Part shown: positions 52,882-63,692 of the stretch, in pieces
Position numbering within the stretch: position 1 is the stretch's first letter
Layout of the letters: each line of letters begins with the position of its first letter
Assembly: GCA_029262835.1 (NCBI GenBank)
Contig: JAJCYQ010000013.1
Location: forward strand, 1 to 64,000
Source of the DNA: Bacteroidota bacterium
GTDB lineage: Bacteria; Bacteroidota; Rhodothermia; Rhodothermales; UBA10348
Direction: 5' to 3'
Length of the DNA: 64,000 bases
The notes under the pieces: generated by a model
What the model saw: only the letters and a program-made list of their open reading frames with translations
What the model was told of the DNA's origin: nothing
The model's database searches: none
Made by a program: the position numbers and the translations under genes

Positions 52882-53961
52882 TTAGGGGCTGTTCATGGAT
52901 CCGAAGGATGTTATCCAGGATAGCGTGCGCTCCAGAAGTTGCGCGGCCTGATCCTGGGCCGCTTCAGAAGAGCCGGCCTCCACTACGTCGATGGGTCCCA
53001 GACGATCCCAGCAGCCAGGTCTCGAACCAACGTGCAGTACACCCGTCACGGCCGGGCGCGAGAAAGGCAGGTGCCGCATGAGCCAGCTGGGCCCCTGGCA
53101 GGCCTCTTCGGTACCTGAATAGGCCGCAAAATACATACTCATTGGCACCGGCCGTCGCTCCAGGCGCAGCGTCTGCACGCGACGTGCTGCCTCAAGGAAG
53201 GCGGCGAGGGCCGCGTTCCCGCTTTCAATGCCGCTTTCGAGCACATCCATGCGCACAAGGACGACAAGCAGGGAATCGCGCATTCGCGGCTCAGCGCCTG
53301 CGTACAACCCACCTACCAGGTGGCCGGTGACCACGTCTTCACGTGCCAGAACCGTGGCGCGCAGCGTTGTAGGCCGCGTCTGAAGCCGCTCAAATACGGG
53401 CCATACCCGCTTGTCCAGTACAAGCCGGATCCCTTCCTCTCCCGGATCGAAAATGGCAGGCGCTGCGGCTGTCGTATCGAGTCGCAAAGCGCTGCGGGCG
53501 GCCGCGAGCGGCGTCCTCCCCGGCAGAATACGTACATCCACGTGGCCTGTCGACGAGCGGGGGTGCACGCTGAAGTCGCGTCCCAACTGGTACCGGGTCG
53601 TGTCCGCACCGAGATGCCACAGGTGCGCTTCCGTCAGAAGGTGCTTTCGAACGGGATACGTCTGTTCATAGCCTCCCATGACCACCGGCTGGAGATCGAA
53701 GCGTGAAAAGTGCCCCGCGATATAGCTCGCGACCAGTCGCGCGCCCTCTGAAGCCGTTTCGCGGCGAGCAAGTTCGTCAGATCGAAGAGCCCGAAGATGG
53801 CCCACGAGAGATCGGGACGCAGTTTGCCCGGTTGGCAGCGTGGCGGCGACGTCAGTCTGCGTGCGTTCTGATGTGCTGCACGCAGCAACGAGCCCGGCTC
53901 CGAGCACGAGACAGAGCACCAGACATCGGCTGTTTTGAAACGTGTAATTGACAAGGCGCAT
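52882..53961 (-). CDS. lipoprotein resembling a degenerate M28-family peptidase
   Basis: Lipobox GLVAAC; RSDELARRETASEGARLVASYIAGHFSRFDLQPVVMGGYEQTYPV and MYFAAYSGTEEACQGPSWLM match M28 architecture; expected GAxDNASG motif not conserved. Confidence 0.5.
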   Translation of the reverse strand: MRLVNYTFQNSRCLVLCLVLGAGLVAACSTSERTQTDVAATLPTGQTASRSLVGHLRALRSDELARRETASEGARLVASYIAGHFSRFDLQPVVMGGYEQTYPVRKHLLTEAHLWHLGADTTRYQLGRDFSVHPRSSTGHVDVRILPGRTPLAAARSALRLDTTAAAPAIFDPGEEGIRLVLDKRVWPVFERLQTRPTTLRATVLAREDVVTGHLVGGLYAGAEPRMRDSLLVVLVRMDVLESGIESGNAALAAFLEAARRVQTLRLERRPVPMSMYFAAYSGTEEACQGPSWLMRHLPFSRPAVTGVLHVGSRPGCWDRLGPIDVVEAGSSEAAQDQAAQLLERTLSWITSFGSMNSP

Positions 53962-53982: not shown

Positions 53983-55344
53983 TCAGTTTCGGGAGCCTTC
54001 GCCCATCTTTCCCTTGTCCACTTTCTGTTCGACACCCTCGTTGAAACGCCTCAGGGCATCTTCAACGGAGCGGCGTCGTTCTTCGAGCAGGTTGTCCGCA
54101 TTCATGCGGGCCATGCGGGTCCGTATGGGATCGACCAGACGCACCTGGATGGCAATTACGAGTTCTTTCTGTGTGATCTGCTTCTGGGACTTACCGAACA
54201 CGTACTTCAGTCCAAAGAACCAACCCGGAAGATCCTTCAGGATCGGAACACCGCTACGCGATATCGTCTCATCAGTGCTGTAAAGACCACCAATAATGGT
54301 CTGTTCGCCATCCAGAAGTACTACCTGTGTCGTCGCCTTGCTACGGTCAATAATGGCACCGGCTGCCGACGGACGGCTTCCCGACTTTTCCACCTCGACA
54401 TCGAGGTGTATAAAGTCCATGACTGGTGACCCCAGGGTGTCGGCCAGCGCTTCCTGGATCAATGTCGGCGTGACGTTTACGATAATACCCGTCTTGAAGA
54501 GCTCTGTGACCGTGTTGCCCGAGAAATCGCGGATCTGAATAGGCACATCCGAGCCAATCTGCAGATCCCCTTCCACGCCACTCTGCACCGTAACCGATGG
54601 ATTGGCTACCGTCTCGCCGATTCCCTCTGCCTCAGCGACGCGGAACAGCCGGTTCAGATCGGAAAAGTTGATCTGATCGGGTGTTTCCAGCACATCGTCG
54701 AAACTCGAAAACAGCTCTTTGGTCTTCAGCGATACGCTCAGGCTGTTCTCCGAGCCTTCTCCGCCCCCACCGCCGCCACCGGTTGCGGCCGCGTTGGCAC
54801 CCGTGCTGCCAAGAATGACGCTCCAGTCAATACCCGACTGCTTTGCCTTCGTATGATTCACCTCGAAGAGGATGGCATTGATCTCGATCTGCCGCGTATC
54901 GAGGCCCGCCAGTTCACTTACGACGAGGGTTTCCGATCGCTGGGGGCCGGCATCGGCCAGGAGCGATTCATTACCCCTGATGGGAGCATCCTGCGGCGCT
55001 TCGCTGACCAGGAAATAGCGCTCCGTCTCACGAAAGACCATGCCATTCTGCTGCAGGACGAGTTCCAGCGCGTCCATGAAATGCATGCCGGAAATGGACA
55101 ATCCGATCGGATTTGTCCGACTCTCGGTGTCGATCACTTCCTTGCCTGTTGCCCGCTTGAAAATGGGGTTCAGGAACTCGATAAAAGTGTCGAACGGTGT
55201 AGACGGCAGGAACGAGACCAGATGCTCGGGCGGAATGTAGGTGCGAATCTGACGCTGGGCAACATCCTGCGCCACGGCAGGAGTTGGGGCCGTCGCGACC
55301 ATGGCGGCGAGGAGGATCAGAAGGTATGCGGCGGTTTTTCTCAT
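53983..55344 (-). CDS. secretin (PilQ/GspD-like)
   Basis: Signal peptide; INAILFEVNHTKAKQSGIDWS; VANPSVTVQSGVEGDLQIGSDVPIQ; TGIIVNVTPTLI; LLDGEQTIIGGLYSTDETISRSGVPILKDLPGWFFGLKYVFG. Confidence 0.9.
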   Translation of the reverse strand: MRKTAAYLLILLAAMVATAPTPAVAQDVAQRQIRTYIPPEHLVSFLPSTPFDTFIEFLNPIFKRATGKEVIDTESRTNPIGLSISGMHFMDALELVLQQNGMVFRETERYFLVSEAPQDAPIRGNESLLADAGPQRSETLVVSELAGLDTRQIEINAILFEVNHTKAKQSGIDWSVILGSTGANAAATGGGGGGGEGSENSLSVSLKTKELFSSFDDVLETPDQINFSDLNRLFRVAEAEGIGETVANPSVTVQSGVEGDLQIGSDVPIQIRDFSGNTVTELFKTGIIVNVTPTLIQEALADTLGSPVMDFIHLDVEVEKSGSRPSAAGAIIDRSKATTQVVLLDGEQTIIGGLYSTDETISRSGVPILKDLPGWFFGLKYVFGKSQKQITQKELVIAIQVRLVDPIRTRMARMNADNLLEERRRSVEDALRRFNEGVEQKVDKGKMGEGSRN

Positions 55345-55351
55345 GAGGGGC

Positions 55352-56266
55352 TCACTGTTTCCGTGATGGTGCCAGACGGACCGGACCAACGGCCTGACGG
55401 TAGCTGGCGCCCGTATCCAACATCAATTCAATTTCGTCGGCAATGCCGCCCCTGTTGAGGCGGACCATTACCCGTCCTTCTCTTGGATCGACAGAAATCA
55501 GCGTTCCTAAATAGACTTTATCTCCAGGCTCGAGGCCGACGTACTCTTCGTTCCAGAGGAAAACCGCCTTGCCACCCGCGATCATGGCCAATTCAGCCCG
55601 CTCCACATCTACCAGGTCGTCCGTATTTGGTGGCAGCTCGCTCAGAATGAGGGGTGTGAATGGGTTATCTGACAGCGAAGGAGACGGGTACCAGTCGGCC
55701 GGAATTGCCGGGAGACTTTCTCGATCATCGGCGCTCATTCCTGCTGAACCACCGTAGTAGGCTGTGAGATCGAAGGAAAAGTCCACCATCGATGCGGAGC
55801 CCGCGTCCAGATCCAGATTGTCAACCCGGTAGAGGACGCGTGCATTTTCAATGGTCCAGATCAGGCTGTACAGATCGGTCCACGCAGCCTTGCCCGTCAG
55901 TTCAAACTCGTACCGATTGAAAAAATCGCCTTCCGTGTGACCATCAAACGTAATATCAAACGGGGAGAAGCCGGTGCGGGTGTGCTCGTTGAGGAAACGA
56001 ACCACATCTTCCGAGGAGAGGCTTTTGGGAACCGTCTTGTATCGGGCTTTCCAACGCGTCATGGCTTCTCCCGCGAGCGACTCCGAGACAGATACATCAC
56101 TCATGAGCGCGTCCATTTCGGCGGCTTTCAAGCGGGCCACTTCCTCCGCCTTTTCGAGGCGCTCCATTTCAGCCGGCTGCCGTACGAGCGTCATATACGC
56201 ACCGCCACCGGCCGCTACCAGCCAGCAGAATCCCAGAATCAGAATATTTTGAACAAGGTTGGACAT
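55352..56266 (-). CDS. PilO-like/PilP-like fusion (inner-membrane alignment complex)
   Basis: N-terminal TM + coiled coil + ferredoxin-like region (FDGHTEGDFFNRYEFELTGKAAWTDLYSLIWTIENARVLYRVDNLDLD); C-terminal beta domain (VFLWNEEYVGLEPGDKVYLGTLISVDPREGRVMVRLNRGG) as in PilP/GspC. Confidence 0.65.
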   Translation of the reverse strand: MSNLVQNILILGFCWLVAAGGGAYMTLVRQPAEMERLEKAEEVARLKAAEMDALMSDVSVSESLAGEAMTRWKARYKTVPKSLSSEDVVRFLNEHTRTGFSPFDITFDGHTEGDFFNRYEFELTGKAAWTDLYSLIWTIENARVLYRVDNLDLDAGSASMVDFSFDLTAYYGGSAGMSADDRESLPAIPADWYPSPSLSDNPFTPLILSELPPNTDDLVDVERAELAMIAGGKAVFLWNEEYVGLEPGDKVYLGTLISVDPREGRVMVRLNRGGIADEIELMLDTGASYRQAVGPVRLAPSRKQ

Positions 56267-56276
56267 GTGTGCGGTA

Positions 56277-58103
56277 TCAGGACCCGTTTGTCATGGTATC
56301 GACCGTGGGCATGCCAGATATAAGCCCGTTCTCCTTCCGGGTGTGCGAATCACTCGTTGCCGCCTCCTCTCTGACTTTTTGCCGAAGTAATTCCGCCGCC
56401 TCGGGGAGCTTCAGTTCGAGGCGTATGGACATTTCCCACTCATAGACGGGCCACTCACGAACGCTCGAAAACTCCACGCTTTCGATGATACCATCCAACT
56501 CGGTCGCAAGTGCCACGACCGCGTCGCGCGATACCGCCGTACCCGACAGATCAAGCCGCTCATCTCCAGAATCCTCCGACCAGTCCTCTATCCAGATGTC
56601 GGAGACCCGTGATGTAGCCGTAGACAGACGCTCCATCGTTCGGGACCAGCGATCGCTGCCTACCAACAGGGAATCGAGCACATCGAGCGCTTTTGTAAGG
56701 CCAACCGAACGTGACTGCAGGCTGTCAATGCGGTGCTCCAGTTGATCCAGATCCGCCTCAATCACTGAAGCCGGATAGGAGCCCAATTGGGATCGATAGG
56801 ATATTATGGCAGTCTGCTGTTCGAACCAGGTCGACACGAAAAACAGCGTGGAACCGAACAGGACCACGATCATGGCGGCAACAGGCCACGAGAAGGGTAA
56901 CTGGAATTGCGGTCCGGCGAGCTTGGAGTCCAGAAAGTTGACAGGGTGAAAGGCCGATTTGTACGGTTCCTCCGTGACCGTGCGAAGCGCAGCGGTAGCG
57001 GCCAGCAGAGTCTCCCGATCCAATGGGCGCGATATCTGCTCCCGCAGCACTGGAAGCAAGGTCCGTACCCGGGCAACCTGTGTTTCCGGGAAAAACTCCT
57101 CGAAGCTGTCTTCTAGCGTATCTTCTCGTTCGTCGCTGAAGAGCCAGATGCAGTCCACGTCTCCCCGGCCGAGTTCATCCTGCAGCAGCAGCACACGGCT
57201 GCAGATGGTTTCGGCTGGATCGAAAACGGTGACCGATCGAAGGTTTTCAACGTGCAGTAGCTCGTTGCCAATCATGAATACCACGATTGTATCGTCGGAG
57301 CCGACCCGGACAATCAACTTGGATGCCTCGGAGTCGTCTCCCGAGTTGGATGCTCCAACAAGTCCAGACAACAGGGTCACTTCAGAATCGACCAGAAGGA
57401 CGTTCGGAAAGCGCCTCTTCCTGTCACGGATGGCACGGAGTGTCGGGGTAACCGGCTCAAACGACTGGGCAAACACGGCCAGACGTGATCGCTCGGACCC
57501 GGGCGTAGAGACCATGGGCAGAAAAGCGGTCCTATCGCCTGCCATTCGGCCATGCTGCGTTTTGCGAAGCAGCTCAAGCAGGAGATCTTTGGATGGATTA
57601 CCTGATCGATCGACCGCTTTCCTTTTTTTTCTGCCCGTCGGGGCTCCGATATCATCTGGGACGTCGACCTGGACGGTATGGGTGTGCTCTGATCCAAGGG
57701 CAAAGGCCACACGCACATTTCCATAACCGGCCGCTTCGCACTCCGCCATGATTTCGAGGGCTTCGAGATCGAATGGTGTCGCGCCATGAGCTGGTACAGT
57801 GAAATCTGCCCCGCCCACGTCCGTGGCCTCTCCACCGTCATCTACGCTGAATTCCGATGCCAGAAAAAGGGAATTGTCCCGCGATTCGCCGTCGGTCAGC
57901 GTGAAAGAAAAGTCCGTGCCAGATTCGTCATTCAGTCCAGGAGAATCAATATCTGCCCCGGAGAAATGCCCTGACGTGCGGGAACGATGGAACGTACGCA
58001 CCAACTCGGGCCCGTCAGATGTATTGTGCAGGAGAACTGCTGCCACATCTGTGGCCGAAGCTGCATACCCGAGAATGTATTCCTGTGATTTCTTGAGCTT
58101 CAT
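56277..58103 (-). CDS. PilM-like/PilN-like fusion (GspL-like)
   Basis: N-terminal actin-like fold region (YILGYAASATDVAAVLL; NVLLVDSEVTLLSGLVG); central TM (WPVAAMIVVLFGSTLFFVSTWF); PilN-like C-terminus (RWSRTMERLSTATSRVSDIWIEDW..LDLSGTAVSRDAVVALATEL). Confidence 0.65.
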   Translation of the reverse strand: MKLKKSQEYILGYAASATDVAAVLLHNTSDGPELVRTFHRSRTSGHFSGADIDSPGLNDESGTDFSFTLTDGESRDNSLFLASEFSVDDGGEATDVGGADFTVPAHGATPFDLEALEIMAECEAAGYGNVRVAFALGSEHTHTVQVDVPDDIGAPTGRKKRKAVDRSGNPSKDLLLELLRKTQHGRMAGDRTAFLPMVSTPGSERSRLAVFAQSFEPVTPTLRAIRDRKRRFPNVLLVDSEVTLLSGLVGASNSGDDSEASKLIVRVGSDDTIVVFMIGNELLHVENLRSVTVFDPAETICSRVLLLQDELGRGDVDCIWLFSDEREDTLEDSFEEFFPETQVARVRTLLPVLREQISRPLDRETLLAATAALRTVTEEPYKSAFHPVNFLDSKLAGPQFQLPFSWPVAAMIVVLFGSTLFFVSTWFEQQTAIISYRSQLGSYPASVIEADLDQLEHRIDSLQSRSVGLTKALDVLDSLLVGSDRWSRTMERLSTATSRVSDIWIEDWSEDSGDERLDLSGTAVSRDAVVALATELDGIIESVEFSSVREWPVYEWEMSIRLELKLPEAAELLRQKVREEAATSDSHTRKENGLISGMPTVDTMTNGS

Positions 58104-58107
58104 GGTC

Positions 58108-59406
58108 CTATGCCAGTTTAGCAAGACGACGTTTATTGTTCGCGTACGCCATGGCTGTGTCGGGAGTGATATGGCCCTGCCGCATCAGGCGGAATAGATC
58201 CTGTTCCAGTGTAATCTGGCCCTGACTCCATCCCTCCCACATCATTTGATAGATCTCGCTCGTGTTTCCATTCTTTACTGCTGCGGTGGCCTGCGGGGTC
58301 ATCCACATTACTTCCTTCGCAAGTATTCTACCTCCGCCCCGCTTCGGGAGTAGTTTCTGGGAAACAATGCACCGAAGCACATCGCCCAGCCGTTGGCGCA
58401 CGCGGTCCTGCTCCTCGGTAGCATATTCTGCTATGATCCGATCAATGCTCTCCACGGCCGATGACGTGTGCAGCGTGGAAAAAACCTTGTGACCGGAGTC
58501 TGTGATTTCCATGGCCGCCGTTATGGTCTCTGGATCCCGCATCTCACCAATCACAACGATATCCGGGTCCTGCCGAAGAGCCTGTACAATACCATCTTTG
58601 AAGGTGGGCACATCCACACCGACCTCGCGATGACGGATCATGCATTTTTTGGATGCGTGCACATACTCAATCGGCTTCCCGATAATCACGACGTGACCAT
58701 CGGACGTCTCATTGTTCGCGTCTACAATGGCATCGAGCGTCGTGCTCTTACCTGATCCGGTTACACCCGTAATGAGCGTCAGGCCGTCTCGTACGTGATT
58801 GAACAGGAGGCCTTTTTCAATGACCGGATGGAATCCGATGGAACGAAGCGTGCGAAGGTCTTCCGAGACGGCGCGCATATTCAGGACGAGGTGACCCAGA
58901 TCCAGGTAGGCCGAGGCGCGAAACCTTCGTTTTTTCCTGCCTTCGTCCAGACTGATTTCATACGAGAAGTCAGCAGCGTGCCAGGATAGCAGACTTTCAA
59001 TACCGGATCGGGTCAGGAGGTTCAGGATCAGCAGCGCGCTTTCGTCGACCGTAAAGGTTCCAGGCTCGGGATCGGGCCTCTTGTGCCCATCAACGCGGAA
59101 CCAGATATACCCGTTGCTGCTGACGCCACCCATATCCATGTCCGAAGCATTCATTACCGCCATGCGCGTCAATTGGCGGTCAAGGAATGTCCTCAATGCG
59201 GCCCGGTCTTCCAATTCCATTTTTTTGATCTGCTCGACGTGGTATCGAATGCGTTCCTCTCCGAGCAATAATTCGGGCGTATTCGCAGCCAGTGCCTGCA
59301 CAACGGGCGGCAGCCCGTCGCCACGGGAACGTTCCGGCGTCGGTGACCACCCGGATCGAGAGGGTCCGCGCGTCGTTCTGGATGTATGCGTTATTGGTTG
59401 TTCCAC
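58108..59406 (-). CDS. PilT-like secretion/retraction ATPase
   Basis: Walker A GVTGSGKSTT, Asp box/Walker B DPDIVVIGEMRDPETITAAMEITDSGHKVFSTLHTSSAVESIDRII (PilT-like HTSSA). Confidence 0.88.
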   Translation of the reverse strand: MEQPITHTSRTTRGPSRSGWSPTPERSRGDGLPPVVQALAANTPELLLGEERIRYHVEQIKKMELEDRAALRTFLDRQLTRMAVMNASDMDMGGVSSNGYIWFRVDGHKRPDPEPGTFTVDESALLILNLLTRSGIESLLSWHAADFSYEISLDEGRKKRRFRASAYLDLGHLVLNMRAVSEDLRTLRSIGFHPVIEKGLLFNHVRDGLTLITGVTGSGKSTTLDAIVDANNETSDGHVVIIGKPIEYVHASKKCMIRHREVGVDVPTFKDGIVQALRQDPDIVVIGEMRDPETITAAMEITDSGHKVFSTLHTSSAVESIDRIIAEYATEEQDRVRQRLGDVLRCIVSQKLLPKRGGGRILAKEVMWMTPQATAAVKNGNTSEIYQMMWEGWSQGQITLEQDLFRLMRQGHITPDTAMAYANNKRRLAKLA

Positions 59407-59480
59407 GTGGATTGGCGGTTCCTGATTGTCATGACCTGGTTACTCAGGAGTATCGACAATGCGAATGGCGTCTTAAACCG

Positions 59481-59516
59481 AAAAGGGGGGCGCGCCAGTG
59501 GCGCGCCCCCCTTCTC
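59481..59516 (-). terminator. Rho-independent terminator downstream of the subtilisin gene
   Basis: GGGGGGCGCGCC AGT GGCGCGCCCCCC stem; followed on the - strand by TTTT. Confidence 0.8.
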
Positions 59517-59558
59517 ATGCATGAACCAACCACCGCGGTTGATATCAACCTGGCATCG

Positions 59559-60896
59559 CTACCAGGAGTCTCCGTCCTCTGATTCCACGCTCAGGTAGCG
59601 GTCTGTCGTACCGCTTGGGACCTTTCTGGCCCGGTTTTCCGCTCGGGATAGTACGGCACGTGTCACCTCAGCAGGCGAAGCCATGGGGTGGCGTGCGAGA
59701 TAGAGTACCGCGGCAGCCGTGACGTGGGCTGTCGACATGGATGTACCCGACATGACGTCCAGTCCGGCTCCGACACCGAGAGAAACCACATCTTCACCCG
59801 GTGCGATAATGTCCACCACCTTCCCGTAGTTGGAAAACCAGGTAAATGCCCGTTTCCGGTCGGTAGCACCCACCGTAATAACATCCGGGACGTGCGCTGG
59901 TGTGATGTTGGCCGCATCTACGGCCTCGTTTCCAGACGCCACAACCACGGTGATGCCAGCATCGAGAGCAGCCTGCACGGCGTCATCAAGGCCGGTTTGC
60001 GTATTACCCACGTTCTCGCCCAGGCTCAGATTCATGACCGCAGGTTTACGCGCATTATTGTGCTTCCATTCAATCACATATTCAATGGCGTTGATGACCA
60101 TGGCGTCGTCCGCTGTTCCAGCGTCCGTGAATACGCGCAGGTTGTGAATGCGCGCACCCGGCGCGATACCAACGGCTCCGTTGTTGTCATCCAGCGCCCC
60201 GATGATTCCAGCAATGTGCGTACCGTGACCATCGTTGTCTCTGGCCGTGCCGGATTCTGAAAAATCCACGTTCGACACCACATTCAGGTCTGGATGACTG
60301 ACGCCTGTATCGAGGACAAAAACATCGACATCCACCTCGCCCTGTCCATCGCCAGAAACTGTCCACGACTCTCGTCCGCCGACTTCATCTACAGACCATG
60401 GAATATGCTGACGCATGCGGGCCTTGCCGCCTCCGAATACCGGGGCTCTCATTCCGAAGACAGGCTCTACCCATGTAATCTCATCGTCACCCGACATCAG
60501 ATCCATGAGTTCCTGCAGGTGTTCTGTCGATGCCCAGATGGCAAACCCATGGAAAGCCTTGCTGAATTCGTAGCGATCAAGCACTTTGTAGCGATCCAGA
60601 ACCTTGTAGCGATCCAGAACCTTATAGCGATCGAGCACTTTGTAGCGATCCAGAACCTTCTGTGGATCAATGGAGAACATGACGGCTGTCAGCTCGCCAC
60701 TCTTGCCCATGGTGGTTACACCGCGGTCCAGAAGGTGAAGGTTGCGGACCTTTTCCACGGATTCCGACGCAGTGGCGGACTGGTCTGTGTTGGCCGTATC
60801 TACGACCTGATCTACGCATCCTGAGAAGAACAGCACGGCAACGAGCGAAAGTACAAACGTAACGCGCGACGGTGTTCGAGATGTTGAGACTGACAT
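59559..60896 (-). CDS. S8 subtilisin-family serine peptidase, lipoprotein
   Basis: Lipobox LFFSGC; catalytic DTGVSHPDL, GHGTHIAGI, GTSMSTAHV; tandem KVLDRY repeats in the propeptide region. Confidence 0.93.
   Translation of the reverse strand: MSVSTSRTPSRVTFVLSLVAVLFFSGCVDQVVDTANTDQSATASESVEKVRNLHLLDRGVTTMGKSGELTAVMFSIDPQKVLDRYKVLDRYKVLDRYKVLDRYKVLDRYEFSKAFHGFAIWASTEHLQELMDLMSGDDEITWVEPVFGMRAPVFGGGKARMRQHIPWSVDEVGGRESWTVSGDGQGEVDVDVFVLDTGVSHPDLNVVSNVDFSESGTARDNDGHGTHIAGIIGALDDNNGAVGIAPGARIHNLRVFTDAGTADDAMVINAIEYVIEWKHNNARKPAVMNLSLGENVGNTQTGLDDAVQAALDAGITVVVASGNEAVDAANITPAHVPDVITVGATDRKRAFTWFSNYGKVVDIIAPGEDVVSLGVGAGLDVMSGTSMSTAHVTAAAVLYLARHPMASPAEVTRAVLSRAENRARKVPSGTTDRYLSVESEDGDSW
60570..60659. 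repeat. 5 x 18-bp tandem repeat encoding (KVLDRY)5
   Basis: GTAGCGATCCAGAACCTT-type units, two synonymous classes. Confidence 0.98.
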
Positions 60897-61025
60897 GATC
60901 TTGAAGGGTTTGATTCAAGGGTTTGCATGCCGCACCAGATGACACGACATGATTGGGGTATCGGCAGCCTCGTCAGGCTCTTTAAATTGGGCGCCCTTTA
61001 ATCCGACCCAGGTACCCGTATTGAC

Positions 61026-61069
61026 ACAAAAAAGGGGTCGGCATAACGCCGACCCCTCAATTTTTTTTA
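61026..61069. terminator. bidirectional Rho-independent terminator
   Basis: AGGGGTCGGC ATAAC GCCGACCCCT stem with T8 on the + side and an A-rich (T on -) run on the other side. Confidence 0.88.
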
Positions 61070-61102
61070 TGGAATCCCAGAAGTGCCTGTCGCACAAGGG
61101 AA

Positions 61103-62647
61103 TTACTTCAGCGCACCTTCAACGGACCGCTGAACGACGACAGCATTCGCTCCGATATCCACCTGCTCCAGCAGCTCTCGCAGCGGGCGAAGAGCCGCCG
61201 TCGAGTACCTGATGTTCGTGTTGTCCCGCAGTGTGATGCGAAAAGCACCGCCTTCTTCCGTCTCCACATCCGCTTCGCACGCGCCTTCTGTATCACCGTG
61301 GCCGAGATGGGCCGGGAGCGCCGACGATCCAATGGTCAGCGTGTGGCGATTGGCCGGATTGCCAGGAGGAATGTGGCATACTTCGACAATGCTGTCTGGC
61401 GCACCGCCCTTGTCGGATTTCTTGCTCTTGCCAGACTTGTCGCTCTTGTCAGACTTGTCGCTCTTGTCCGACTTCTTGCTCTTGTCCGACTTCTTGCTCT
61501 TGGAGCTCTTGCAAGATTTCTTGCTCTTATCTGACTTGTCGCTTTTTGCAGACTTATCAGACTTTTTGCTCTTGTCCGACTTGTCACTCTTGTCCGACTT
61601 GTCGCTCTTGTCAGACTTGCCCGACTTCTTGCTCTTGTCAGACTTGTCGCTCTTGGCGGACTTGCCCGACTTCTTGCTCTTGTCCGACTTGTCCTCTACG
61701 CACTCTTCCTCGTCGCCTCCGTCATCATCGTCCGATCCGCCGTCAGATACATCAAGCGCCGATCGAAGTACGACCGAGCCATAGACGGCAGAGTCGTCTT
61801 CAAATGTGTGGATACCACCCTCGGCATTGTTGCCATAGACCATCCCGTACCACACGGAATTATCTTCAAATGTAATGTTTCCTGATGCATACAGGACGCC
61901 ATAACCGGAGAAATTCCCACTCAACTCAACGTTTCCGCGGATACGTAGCACTTTTGGTGATGCGATGCTGCCCAACGTACCGCTGCTGTAGGACGTACTT
62001 CCACTCACGTCCACGAGGGCGTCTCCAGAGTAATTCAATATGGCCGACTCCAATTCGTCAAGCGATGTCAGCGGATTGCCATTCACAATATCCAGCTCGC
62101 CCTCCGAGCCGACGACATTATCCCTGTCCGCTTCGGAAAGCGTTGTATTGAACGCCGACGTGTTAGTGACCAGTATACCGCGCACATGTGGCCCCACCGC
62201 ATTCGTACCATCAAGAGCAGCATCGACGCCCGAGACATAATAATTGTCGCGGAAGTCAAGGGAGGTCACTGGACCGTCGATCGTCATCGCGTCAAAGAGT
62301 CGCTGCCCCCCCTTCTCCATGGACCCGGAAATTCTGTACTTGAATCCGTCATACTTCCCGGTGGCGGTGATTACAACCTCTCCGCCAGCACCCGTGGAAG
62401 CAGAGACATCATATTTGGCATCCCGGTACTTGACGTTGGATTCGGAGTCACGATAGCCGTCAAAGTCCCTCTTGACCCGTCCTACGACTACGTTGAACGC
62501 GGACTGGGCCGCTTCCCGGGCCAATACCTGTCCCTCATAGTCGGCTTCGACCTGTTGCTGGTTCAGCAGTGTCTCGTCGCGCGAAATGTACATGGCCGAC
62601 GCCGCGAGCGTCGTTCCGAGTACGATCAGTAATACGGCCTTACCCAT
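61103..62647 (-). CDS. PilX-like pilus protein with DKS/KKS repeat tract and CHxPPGNP module
   Basis: N-terminal hydrophobic helix MGKAVLLIVLGTTLAASAMYIS; beta-rich region VLRIRGNVELSGNFSGYGVLYASGNITFEDNSVWYGMVYG; (DKS/KKS)n; VCHIPPGNPANRHTLTIGSSALPAHLGHGDTEGAC. Confidence 0.65.
   Translation of the reverse strand: MGKAVLLIVLGTTLAASAMYISRDETLLNQQQVEADYEGQVLAREAAQSAFNVVVGRVKRDFDGYRDSESNVKYRDAKYDVSASTGAGGEVVITATGKYDGFKYRISGSMEKGGQRLFDAMTIDGPVTSLDFRDNYYVSGVDAALDGTNAVGPHVRGILVTNTSAFNTTLSEADRDNVVGSEGELDIVNGNPLTSLDELESAILNYSGDALVDVSGSTSYSSGTLGSIASPKVLRIRGNVELSGNFSGYGVLYASGNITFEDNSVWYGMVYGNNAEGGIHTFEDDSAVYGSVVLRSALDVSDGGSDDDDGGDEEECVEDKSDKSKKSGKSAKSDKSDKSKKSGKSDKSDKSDKSDKSDKSKKSDKSAKSDKSDKSKKSCKSSKSKKSDKSKKSDKSDKSDKSDKSGKSKKSDKGGAPDSIVEVCHIPPGNPANRHTLTIGSSALPAHLGHGDTEGACEADVETEEGGAFRITLRDNTNIRYSTAALRPLRELLEQVDIGANAVVVQRSVEGALK
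61429..61695. repeat. 9-bp-periodic low-complexity repeat encoding DKS/KKS/GKS triplets
   Basis: TTGTCGCTC / TTCTTGCTC / TTGTCCGAC units. Confidence 0.95.
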
Positions 62648-62726
62648 TGTGGTACCTGAATGAAGTGCATGGTTTTCAGGAGGGGTATCGACCGGTCCCG
62701 AAGAACCTTAAGCCCACAGTGCAAAT

Positions 62727-63302
62727 TTAATTCTGCAATCCAATAGGGCGGATGGTAATTCCCCAATGCGACTGGAATACGCTCGATCCGTTGTCCTCTC
62801 CGAATGGATACACATTCACGAGCGTCGCCCGTACCAATCGTGCGCTTCCCGCCGAAAGTGTGACATTTCCGTCTGAATCGAGCATGTCAAGGGCAAAGAA
62901 GCGTACCCGCTCGCCCCCTCCACCTGCCCAGACGTCATTCTCGAACCGGTCCAGCGTATAGAGCTGAACGGAATCGCCACGGACAACGACCTTGTTGCCA
63001 GCCGACAGGCGATAGGTCACCTCCATGTCCGCCCCGCCGGCATCCTGTTTCCAGAACTCGAATACGGTGGTCAGTCCATCGGCATTCGTCTGCACGTCTG
63101 TGACGGTATCGGCGGTCCCGTTGCCGAGAGCAGCCAGATCCTCCTCAATCGAGACCCCTGTTTGCAGCGTGGACTGCTTGGATGCATAGGCTATCGTCTG
63201 CTCCACGGCCGAGCGCTGTGCCTGGAATTGCGTTGACAGCACGATGAGGATGACGGCCGAGCCGATCATGATGGCCGATATGTTGTCGAGGATGAGCTGC
63301 AT
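62727..63302 (-). CDS. pilin-like/pseudopilin-like protein
   Basis: N-terminal hydrophobic helix (ISAIMIGSAVILIVLSTQFQAQRSAVEQTIAYASKQ), beta-rich C-terminus; clustered with neighbours. Confidence 0.5.
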   Translation of the reverse strand: MQLILDNISAIMIGSAVILIVLSTQFQAQRSAVEQTIAYASKQSTLQTGVSIEEDLAALGNGTADTVTDVQTNADGLTTVFEFWKQDAGGADMEVTYRLSAGNKVVVRGDSVQLYTLDRFENDVWAGGGGERVRFFALDMLDSDGNVTLSAGSARLVRATLVNVYPFGEDNGSSVFQSHWGITIRPIGLQN

Positions 63303-63692
63303 TTATTCGGAGAAGATGCGGCTGTGAACGACAAGAGGCATGGTGAAATGATCGTTCGCGGCCGTGACCTCTACTTCCTGCTGTGAGGTGGGGACGCCGC
63401 TCGGGTCCCCGTCGTCGTCAACGTATTGCACGACGATGGTGAGCGTAAAGTCCTCGTTCAAGTCTCCTGCCGCGAAGGTCGCCACGATCGTGTCGCCGTC
63501 CAGGTCGTCCAGGTCATCGAAATCAGTCCCGACGGCAATTATCTCCATACGCTCAATCACGACCGCATTCGCCATGAGTTCGTACTCGGAATGCACCATC
63601 TGCTCGTATACGGCTGCTTTTGAGCCCATCTGATTGTAGGCGGCAATCGACGCGATCATCATCGCGAGGAAGGCCATCAAACTTTGTGGCAT
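63303..63692 (-). CDS. pilin-like/pseudopilin-like protein
   Basis: N-terminal hydrophobic helix (MPQSLMAFLAMMIASIAAYNQMGSKAAVYEQM), 1-bp from the next CDS. Confidence 0.5.
   Translation of the reverse strand: MPQSLMAFLAMMIASIAAYNQMGSKAAVYEQMVHSEYELMANAVVIERMEIIAVGTDFDDLDDLDGDTIVATFAAGDLNEDFTLTIVVQYVDDDGDPSGVPTSQQEVEVTAANDHFTMPLVVHSRIFSE

Follow-up and report, generated by a model that had tools for sequence, protein, structure and literature searches.

A T4aP-type machine with apparently leaderless pilins and mostly no recognisable prepilin peptidase in Rhodothermales and other bacterial groups

Can a type IV filament be built from pilins that are never processed? The question is raised by a gene cluster on the minus strand of the window, by which we mean the whole stretch of DNA analysed, the first 64 kb of contig C13 (80.5 kb) from a 3.45 Mb genome (97.6% complete, 103 contigs) whose closest relatives are Rhodothermales and unplaced Bacteroidota MAGs. 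An earlier note on this DNA had placed three pilin-like proteins, a PilT-like ATPase, PilM-N and PilO-P fusions and a secretin at 53983-63692, and our reading of the open reading frames gives the same genes in the same order; the list was right but left unmentioned an S8 subtilase (59559-60896) inside the cluster. In downstream order the genes are:

63303..63692, minus strand: p129, leaderless minor-pilin-like protein placed like PilV/GspI (furthest-upstream start)
62727..63302, minus strand: p191, leaderless minor-pilin-like protein placed like PilW/GspJ (start abuts the p129 stop)
61103..62647, minus strand: 514-aa leaderless PilX/GspK-like protein with a DKS-repeat stretch (family alignment A8)
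59559..60896, minus strand: S8 subtilase (PF00082, 1.6e-41)
58108..59406, minus strand: PilT-like retraction ATPase (PF00437, 6.1e-34; TIGR01420; PDB matches)
56277..58124, minus strand: PilM-PilN fusion, 615 aa (profile and Pfam matches)
55352..56266, minus strand: PilO-PilP fusion, 304 aa (profile, AlphaFold and Foldseek)
53983..55389, minus strand: secretin, PilQ-like (PF00263, 9.6e-26)

The start of PilM-N is likely the internal ATG at 58103, and that of the secretin the internal ATG at 55344, which would yield a protein of 453 aa carrying a signal peptide. The secretin gene is immediately followed by one for a probable lipoprotein (52882-53961), which has no Pfam match and whose place is kept across the family. 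The S8 subtilase, whose N-terminal hydrophobic segment ends in Cys, may also be a lipoprotein, and it carries five tandem VLDRY[KE] (VLDRY-type) repeats near its N-terminus; homologues within the cluster were seen in the window's family only (L055-L058, L060 and L065), and the subtilase stands outside the core system.

We examined how far the cluster carries the parts of a T4aP machine. The ATPase at 58108-59406 has PilT as its top match, in agreement with the earlier note: it scores 304.5 bits on TIGR01420, just under the cut-off of 319.1, the family profile finds PilT structures as its best PDB matches (2ewv, E=1.8e-85), and the Walker motif residues are invariant in the family. For the alignment proteins, the note had allowed that the fusions might be misread domains or that a standard operon with non-fused homologues might be found; instead, PilM, PilN, PilO and PilP domains are all recovered, as two fusions, by profile, AlphaFold model and Foldseek. 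The PilM-PilN profile (46 members) matches PilN (3jc8, E=4.4e-13) over its C-terminal positions 379-528 and PilM (2ych, E=0.02) over its N-terminal positions 110-277, with Pfam PilN matched by 19 of the 46 members. The PilO-PilP profile (54 members) matches PilO (E=1.1e-5), and its AlphaFold model (pLDDT 87) consists of a TM/coiled helix (3-73), a ferredoxin-like domain (85-171), a linker and a beta domain (225-282), in which Foldseek recognises, on one chain, both PilO (3jc8_Oa, 5uvr) and the PilP domain (2y4y, prob 1.00, 1.7 Å over 68 columns). Both proteins stay single genes throughout the relatives, contiguous operons included, the one exception being a split PilM-N among the 73 loci that hold it. 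The secretin exceeds the cut-off of PF00263 and is the sole one that a genome search found in the source genome, which bears out its identification in the note; TIGR02515 (PilQ) is its best NCBIfam model at 81.7 bits, far under the cut-off of 284.

The note had further described the system as compact, with no PilB or PilC and a PilT-like protein as its only ATPase, and had suggested looking for PilB, PilC and PilD to the right. The remainder of the contig, up to 78.0 of 80.5 kb, holds no recognisable pil genes, and the absence of PilB and PilC is true of the window but not of the genome. Searches with PF00437 and PF00482 found both on contig C46, preceded by two major pilins of 136-151 aa that start MGQQQLLLLV. 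This PilB scores 399.9 bits on TIGR02538, under its cut-off of 675.65, and exceeds that of PF00437; PilC exceeds the PF00482 cut-off and scores highest on the GspF model. Since PilB, PilC and the major pilins exist on C46, the machine is, as judged from its genes, complete and close to T4aP rather than reduced. The PilB (926 aa, L005:8024-10804) carries an MshEN domain (PF05157 over cut-off), possibly a c-di-GMP control point. A second PilB-like ATPase of 611 aa (L006:8288-10123, contig C74) stands alone, far from any platform or pilin gene.

Scanning the ATPase alignment against 84,980 species genomes yielded 80 loci, thus chosen by their PilT-like gene, from Rhodothermales (including Salinibacter, Salinivenus, Rhodothermus and Roseithermus), Balneolales, Ignavibacteria and Neomarinimicrobiota. 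The operon, both fusions included, is kept across these four major groups, so the synteny that the note had proposed to check is conserved and its attribution of the system to "this lineage" was too narrow. Where the upstream sequence is long enough, PilB shares the locus with the rest in most relatives, and the two halves are joined in L051, L053, L054, L062, L063 and 31 named loci; the order is pilin(s), PilC, PilB, three minor pilins (V-W-X), PilT, PilM-N, PilO-P and secretin, with PilC, PilB, PilT and PilM-N on one strand in 31 loci. The split into two halves is found in the window's own family. Between pilin and PilC, some relatives have a large membrane-protein gene (L051:3935-5449, L052:3243-4799, L054:944-2464), which in L051 matches the Wzy_C O-antigen ligase and might serve pilin glycosylation. 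Roseithermus sacchariphilus (CP030158; L078, L111) has two copies of the operon, the second with PilM-N as two ORFs. In a sample of 198 genomes drawn evenly from the phylum, all of them 90% complete or better, the leaderless major pilin occurs in 73.

The pilins themselves depart from the canonical type. With each ORF taken from its furthest-upstream ATG, GTG or TTG, the TM segment starts no more than 8 residues in for 42 of 44 major pilins, 53 of 62 p129, 55 of 60 p191 and 61 of 79 PilX-like proteins. In all four pilin-like families the protein starts directly with the membrane helix; leader and Gly-1 are missing, as is Glu5 in the major pilin, and no G-x4-E motif was found in any of them; the note's remark that the pilin N-termini lack G/xxxxE is true and general across the families, none of which has the class III leader, Gly-1 and Glu5 of T4aP pilins. 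By comparison, the canonical prepilins that lie next to A24 genes in sister genomes carry a GFSLTEL-type motif after a leader of at least 10 residues. The major pilin N-terminus, M-G-[QTSN]-Q-Q-L-L-L-[LI]-V-L, is shared across Rhodothermales, Balneolales, Ignavibacteria and Neomarinimicrobiota, with zero charge before the TM segment, Gly at residue 2 in 41 of 42 and in-frame stops at 1-30 codons before the first start; in the source genome, a strong ribosome site, AAAGGAGG, directly precedes ATG-GGT-CAG. The minor proteins p129 and p191 start MPQSLMAFLAMMIAS and MQLILDNISAIMIG, respectively. As the p191 ATG directly follows the p129 TAA in the same frame, no leader is encodable for p191. It has Asp at position 6 in 41 of 51 distinct homologues, near the position matching Glu5 of a mature pilin. 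The PilX-like protein starts MGKAVLLIVLG, with MG at 1-2 invariant in its alignment.

Whether these proteins are pilins was assessed by fold and family comparisons. The AlphaFold model of the major pilin (pLDDT 89) has a 53-residue N-terminal helix followed by a beta sheet, and Foldseek gives 7o5y as top pilin (TM 0.45, E=1.6), behind unrelated proteins; the pilin fold is thus supported by the shape of the model and not by a decisive fold match. Its profile aligns weakly (E 0.09-4) to three solved pilins, all in the same register, with profile position 9 at mature residue 6 and Glu5 falling on Leu8. Conservation is 0.77 over the N-terminal 25 columns vs 0.43 for the rest, as would suit an N-terminal helix that serves as the assembly interface. 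For the minor pilins no family was matched, and PDB profile searches gave nothing usable: p129 has no match in the PDB, and its assignment as a pilin draws on position, N-terminal helix and synteny, while p191 has no meaningful Pfam or PDB match. The PilX-like protein (61103-62647) contains a CHIPPGNP segment and an extended run of DKS/KKS repeats; its relatives range from ~340 to 840 aa, some matching DUF7305, Bactofilin or ice-binding-like adhesive domains, and it is possibly a tip or adhesive subunit.

Presence or absence of a prepilin peptidase was determined by profile searches of the genomes. The source genome has no credible match to PF01478 (best E=0.3), PF06750 (E=0.42) or PF07963, and the DNA behind the E=0.3 match reads as a P-type ATPase-like gene; the note's statement that no prepilin peptidase is present therefore extends from the window to the genome. 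The A24 peptidase is absent from 65 of the 73 near-complete genomes in which the phylum sample showed the leaderless pilin. Among 60 relatives, source genome included, 41 have a high-scoring PilT-like gene, and 36 of these have no A24 over cut-off; likewise, 29 of 31 named carrier genomes lack A24, the two exceptions being Neomarinimicrobiota in which the A24 gene neighbours one for a response regulator and no canonical prepilin was seen next to it (L146, L147). In the five A24-positive relatives (G003, G031, G034, G037, G045), all Rhodothermales, a separate canonical prepilin of GFSLTEL, GFTLPEL or GFSMTEL type adjoins the A24 gene (L041-L045). These pairs would belong to a further type IV filament or secretion system, of the conventional kind, and sharing of their peptidase was rejected as an explanation, the A24 sitting by its own prepilin. 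No conserved extra operon gene that could be a peptidase was found in the loci compared.

Taken together, the window probably holds the second half of a complete T4aP-type machine whose pilins need no prepilin peptidase, with PilB, PilC, PilT, PilM-N, PilO-P, the secretin and five leaderless pilin-like proteins, two of them major and three minor, as the parts recognised by sequence. We propose that the pilins are translated already "mature", as Met and a few residues followed by the membrane helix, so that PilD would be bypassed; methionine aminopeptidase probably takes off the Met when Gly, Pro, Ser or Ala follows it, the only trimming that appears likely. The helix would insert with its short N-terminus in the cytoplasm, and PilB and PilC would draw the subunits out of the membrane to build a helical filament, in which the conserved N-terminal helix provides the cohesion and no contact runs from Glu5 to the N-terminus. 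PilM-N and PilO-P would align the filament, which would leave by way of the secretin and be retracted by PilT; extension, retraction and exit are predicted from the likeness of motors, platform, alignment proteins and secretin to those of T4aP. The filament is likely used for attachment to surfaces, for motility or to take up DNA, its formation and function alike being predictions from the gene content. Counting against this reading, known pilins need their leader removed for assembly (PMC4471445, PMC8546353), the uncharged N-terminus here gives no obvious signal for membrane topology, and some family members lack the PilT-like gene.

Several other readings have to be weighed. The leaderless proteins could form only a short periplasmic piston, the pseudopilus of a T2SS-like secretion system, a reading favoured in that the Cytophaga "T2SS", likewise T4aP-derived, secretes proteins (PMC6668835, PMC5553014) and in that GspF is the top-scoring model for PilC of the source genome. 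We regard this as unlikely, because PilM-N and PilO-P match pilus proteins and not GspL/M/C, retraction ATPases are known from pili only (PMC4471445) and a PilT-like ATPase is in the operon at almost every locus seen, the 80 scanned loci having been picked by that gene; in addition, the five relatives examined have a Cytophaga-type canonical prepilin and A24 gene apart from the leaderless-pilin system. Some relatives without the PilT-like gene still carry a PilB-like ATPase.

It is also conceivable, but improbable, that leaders exist and were missed through wrong start codons, or are cut by some peptidase outside the A24 family. A minority of the minor-pilin ORFs do have longer upstream frames, p191 retains an acidic residue at position 6 and, to our knowledge, all described type IV pilins are processed. 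Against this stand the upstream in-frame stops and near-invariant Gly of the major pilins, the ribosome site of the source genome's pilin, the p191 ATG set directly after a stop, and an operon offering no conserved candidate for such a peptidase. The last reading, an ordinary T4aP whose prepilin peptidase is merely lost in draft assemblies, is very hard to credit: the source genome is indeed a draft, but A24 is missing as well from single-contig genomes (G028, G032, G036 and Roseithermus CP030158), so assembly gaps are not the general cause of its absence; the near-complete phylum genomes agree, and the pilins have no cleavage site in any case. The closed genomes refute this explanation. Unprocessed pilins in a complete machine thus remain our preferred reading.

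Reviews define type IV filaments by a class III leader and a dedicated peptidase (PMC4471445), and signal peptide removal is held to be essential (PMC8546353). We saw neither leaderless type IV pilins nor an absent prepilin peptidase described in the literature searched, largely outside subscription journals, and the leaderless, peptidase-free arrangement across several bacterial groups appears to be new. It seems reasonably likely, though with less assurance than the reading of the machine itself, that a class of never-processed type IV filaments, with no leader, peptidase or Glu5 contact, exists in Bacteroidota (Rhodothermales, Balneolales, Ignavibacteria) and Neomarinimicrobiota. If so, prepilin processing is not a universal requirement of type IV filaments: a widespread machine with all motors but no leader or peptidase would show that assembly can do without it, the filament would hold without the Glu5 contact thought essential, and the system would be a natural one for testing the roles of both leader and Glu5.

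The comparison with known systems places the machine close to T4aP, and the earlier suggestion of a distinct pilus or secretion system is upheld by the fused PilM-N and PilO-P, the leaderless pilins and the missing peptidase. With the T2SS (GspC-O) it has in common a secretin, an ATPase, a GspF-type platform and pseudopilin-like subunits, but it differs in its PilT-like ATPase, in alignment proteins that match those of pili, and in having neither GspO nor class III pseudopilin leaders. The Cytophaga "T2SS" comes from a related phylum, branches together with T4aP (PMC6668835), is T4aP-derived and has PilM/N/O/P-like proteins; in C. hutchinsonii (CHU_3191-3201) it includes a Peptidase_A24 gene, CHU_3197, and a recognised T2S-G, with no PilT mentioned (PMC5553014), whereas here there is a PilT-like gene and neither a canonical prepilin nor an adjacent A24. 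The ignavibacterium Melioribacter roseus, compared by its published description, is similar in having motors and secretin, pilT, pilQ, pilB and pilC being reported and pilA and pilD not found, a set its authors thought probably incomplete (PMC3534657); leaderless pilins, had they gone unrecognised there, would account for that report. The likeness to T4aP extends to homologous PilB, PilC, PilT, PilM, N, O and P domains and secretin, the M-N-O-P-Q order and the grouped minor pilins, whereas the fusions, the lack of PilD and pilins without leader, Gly-1 and, in the major pilin, Glu5 set it apart. As the machine parts of T4aP are found and the two defining features, leader and peptidase, are missing, the system is likely a variant that works like T4aP.
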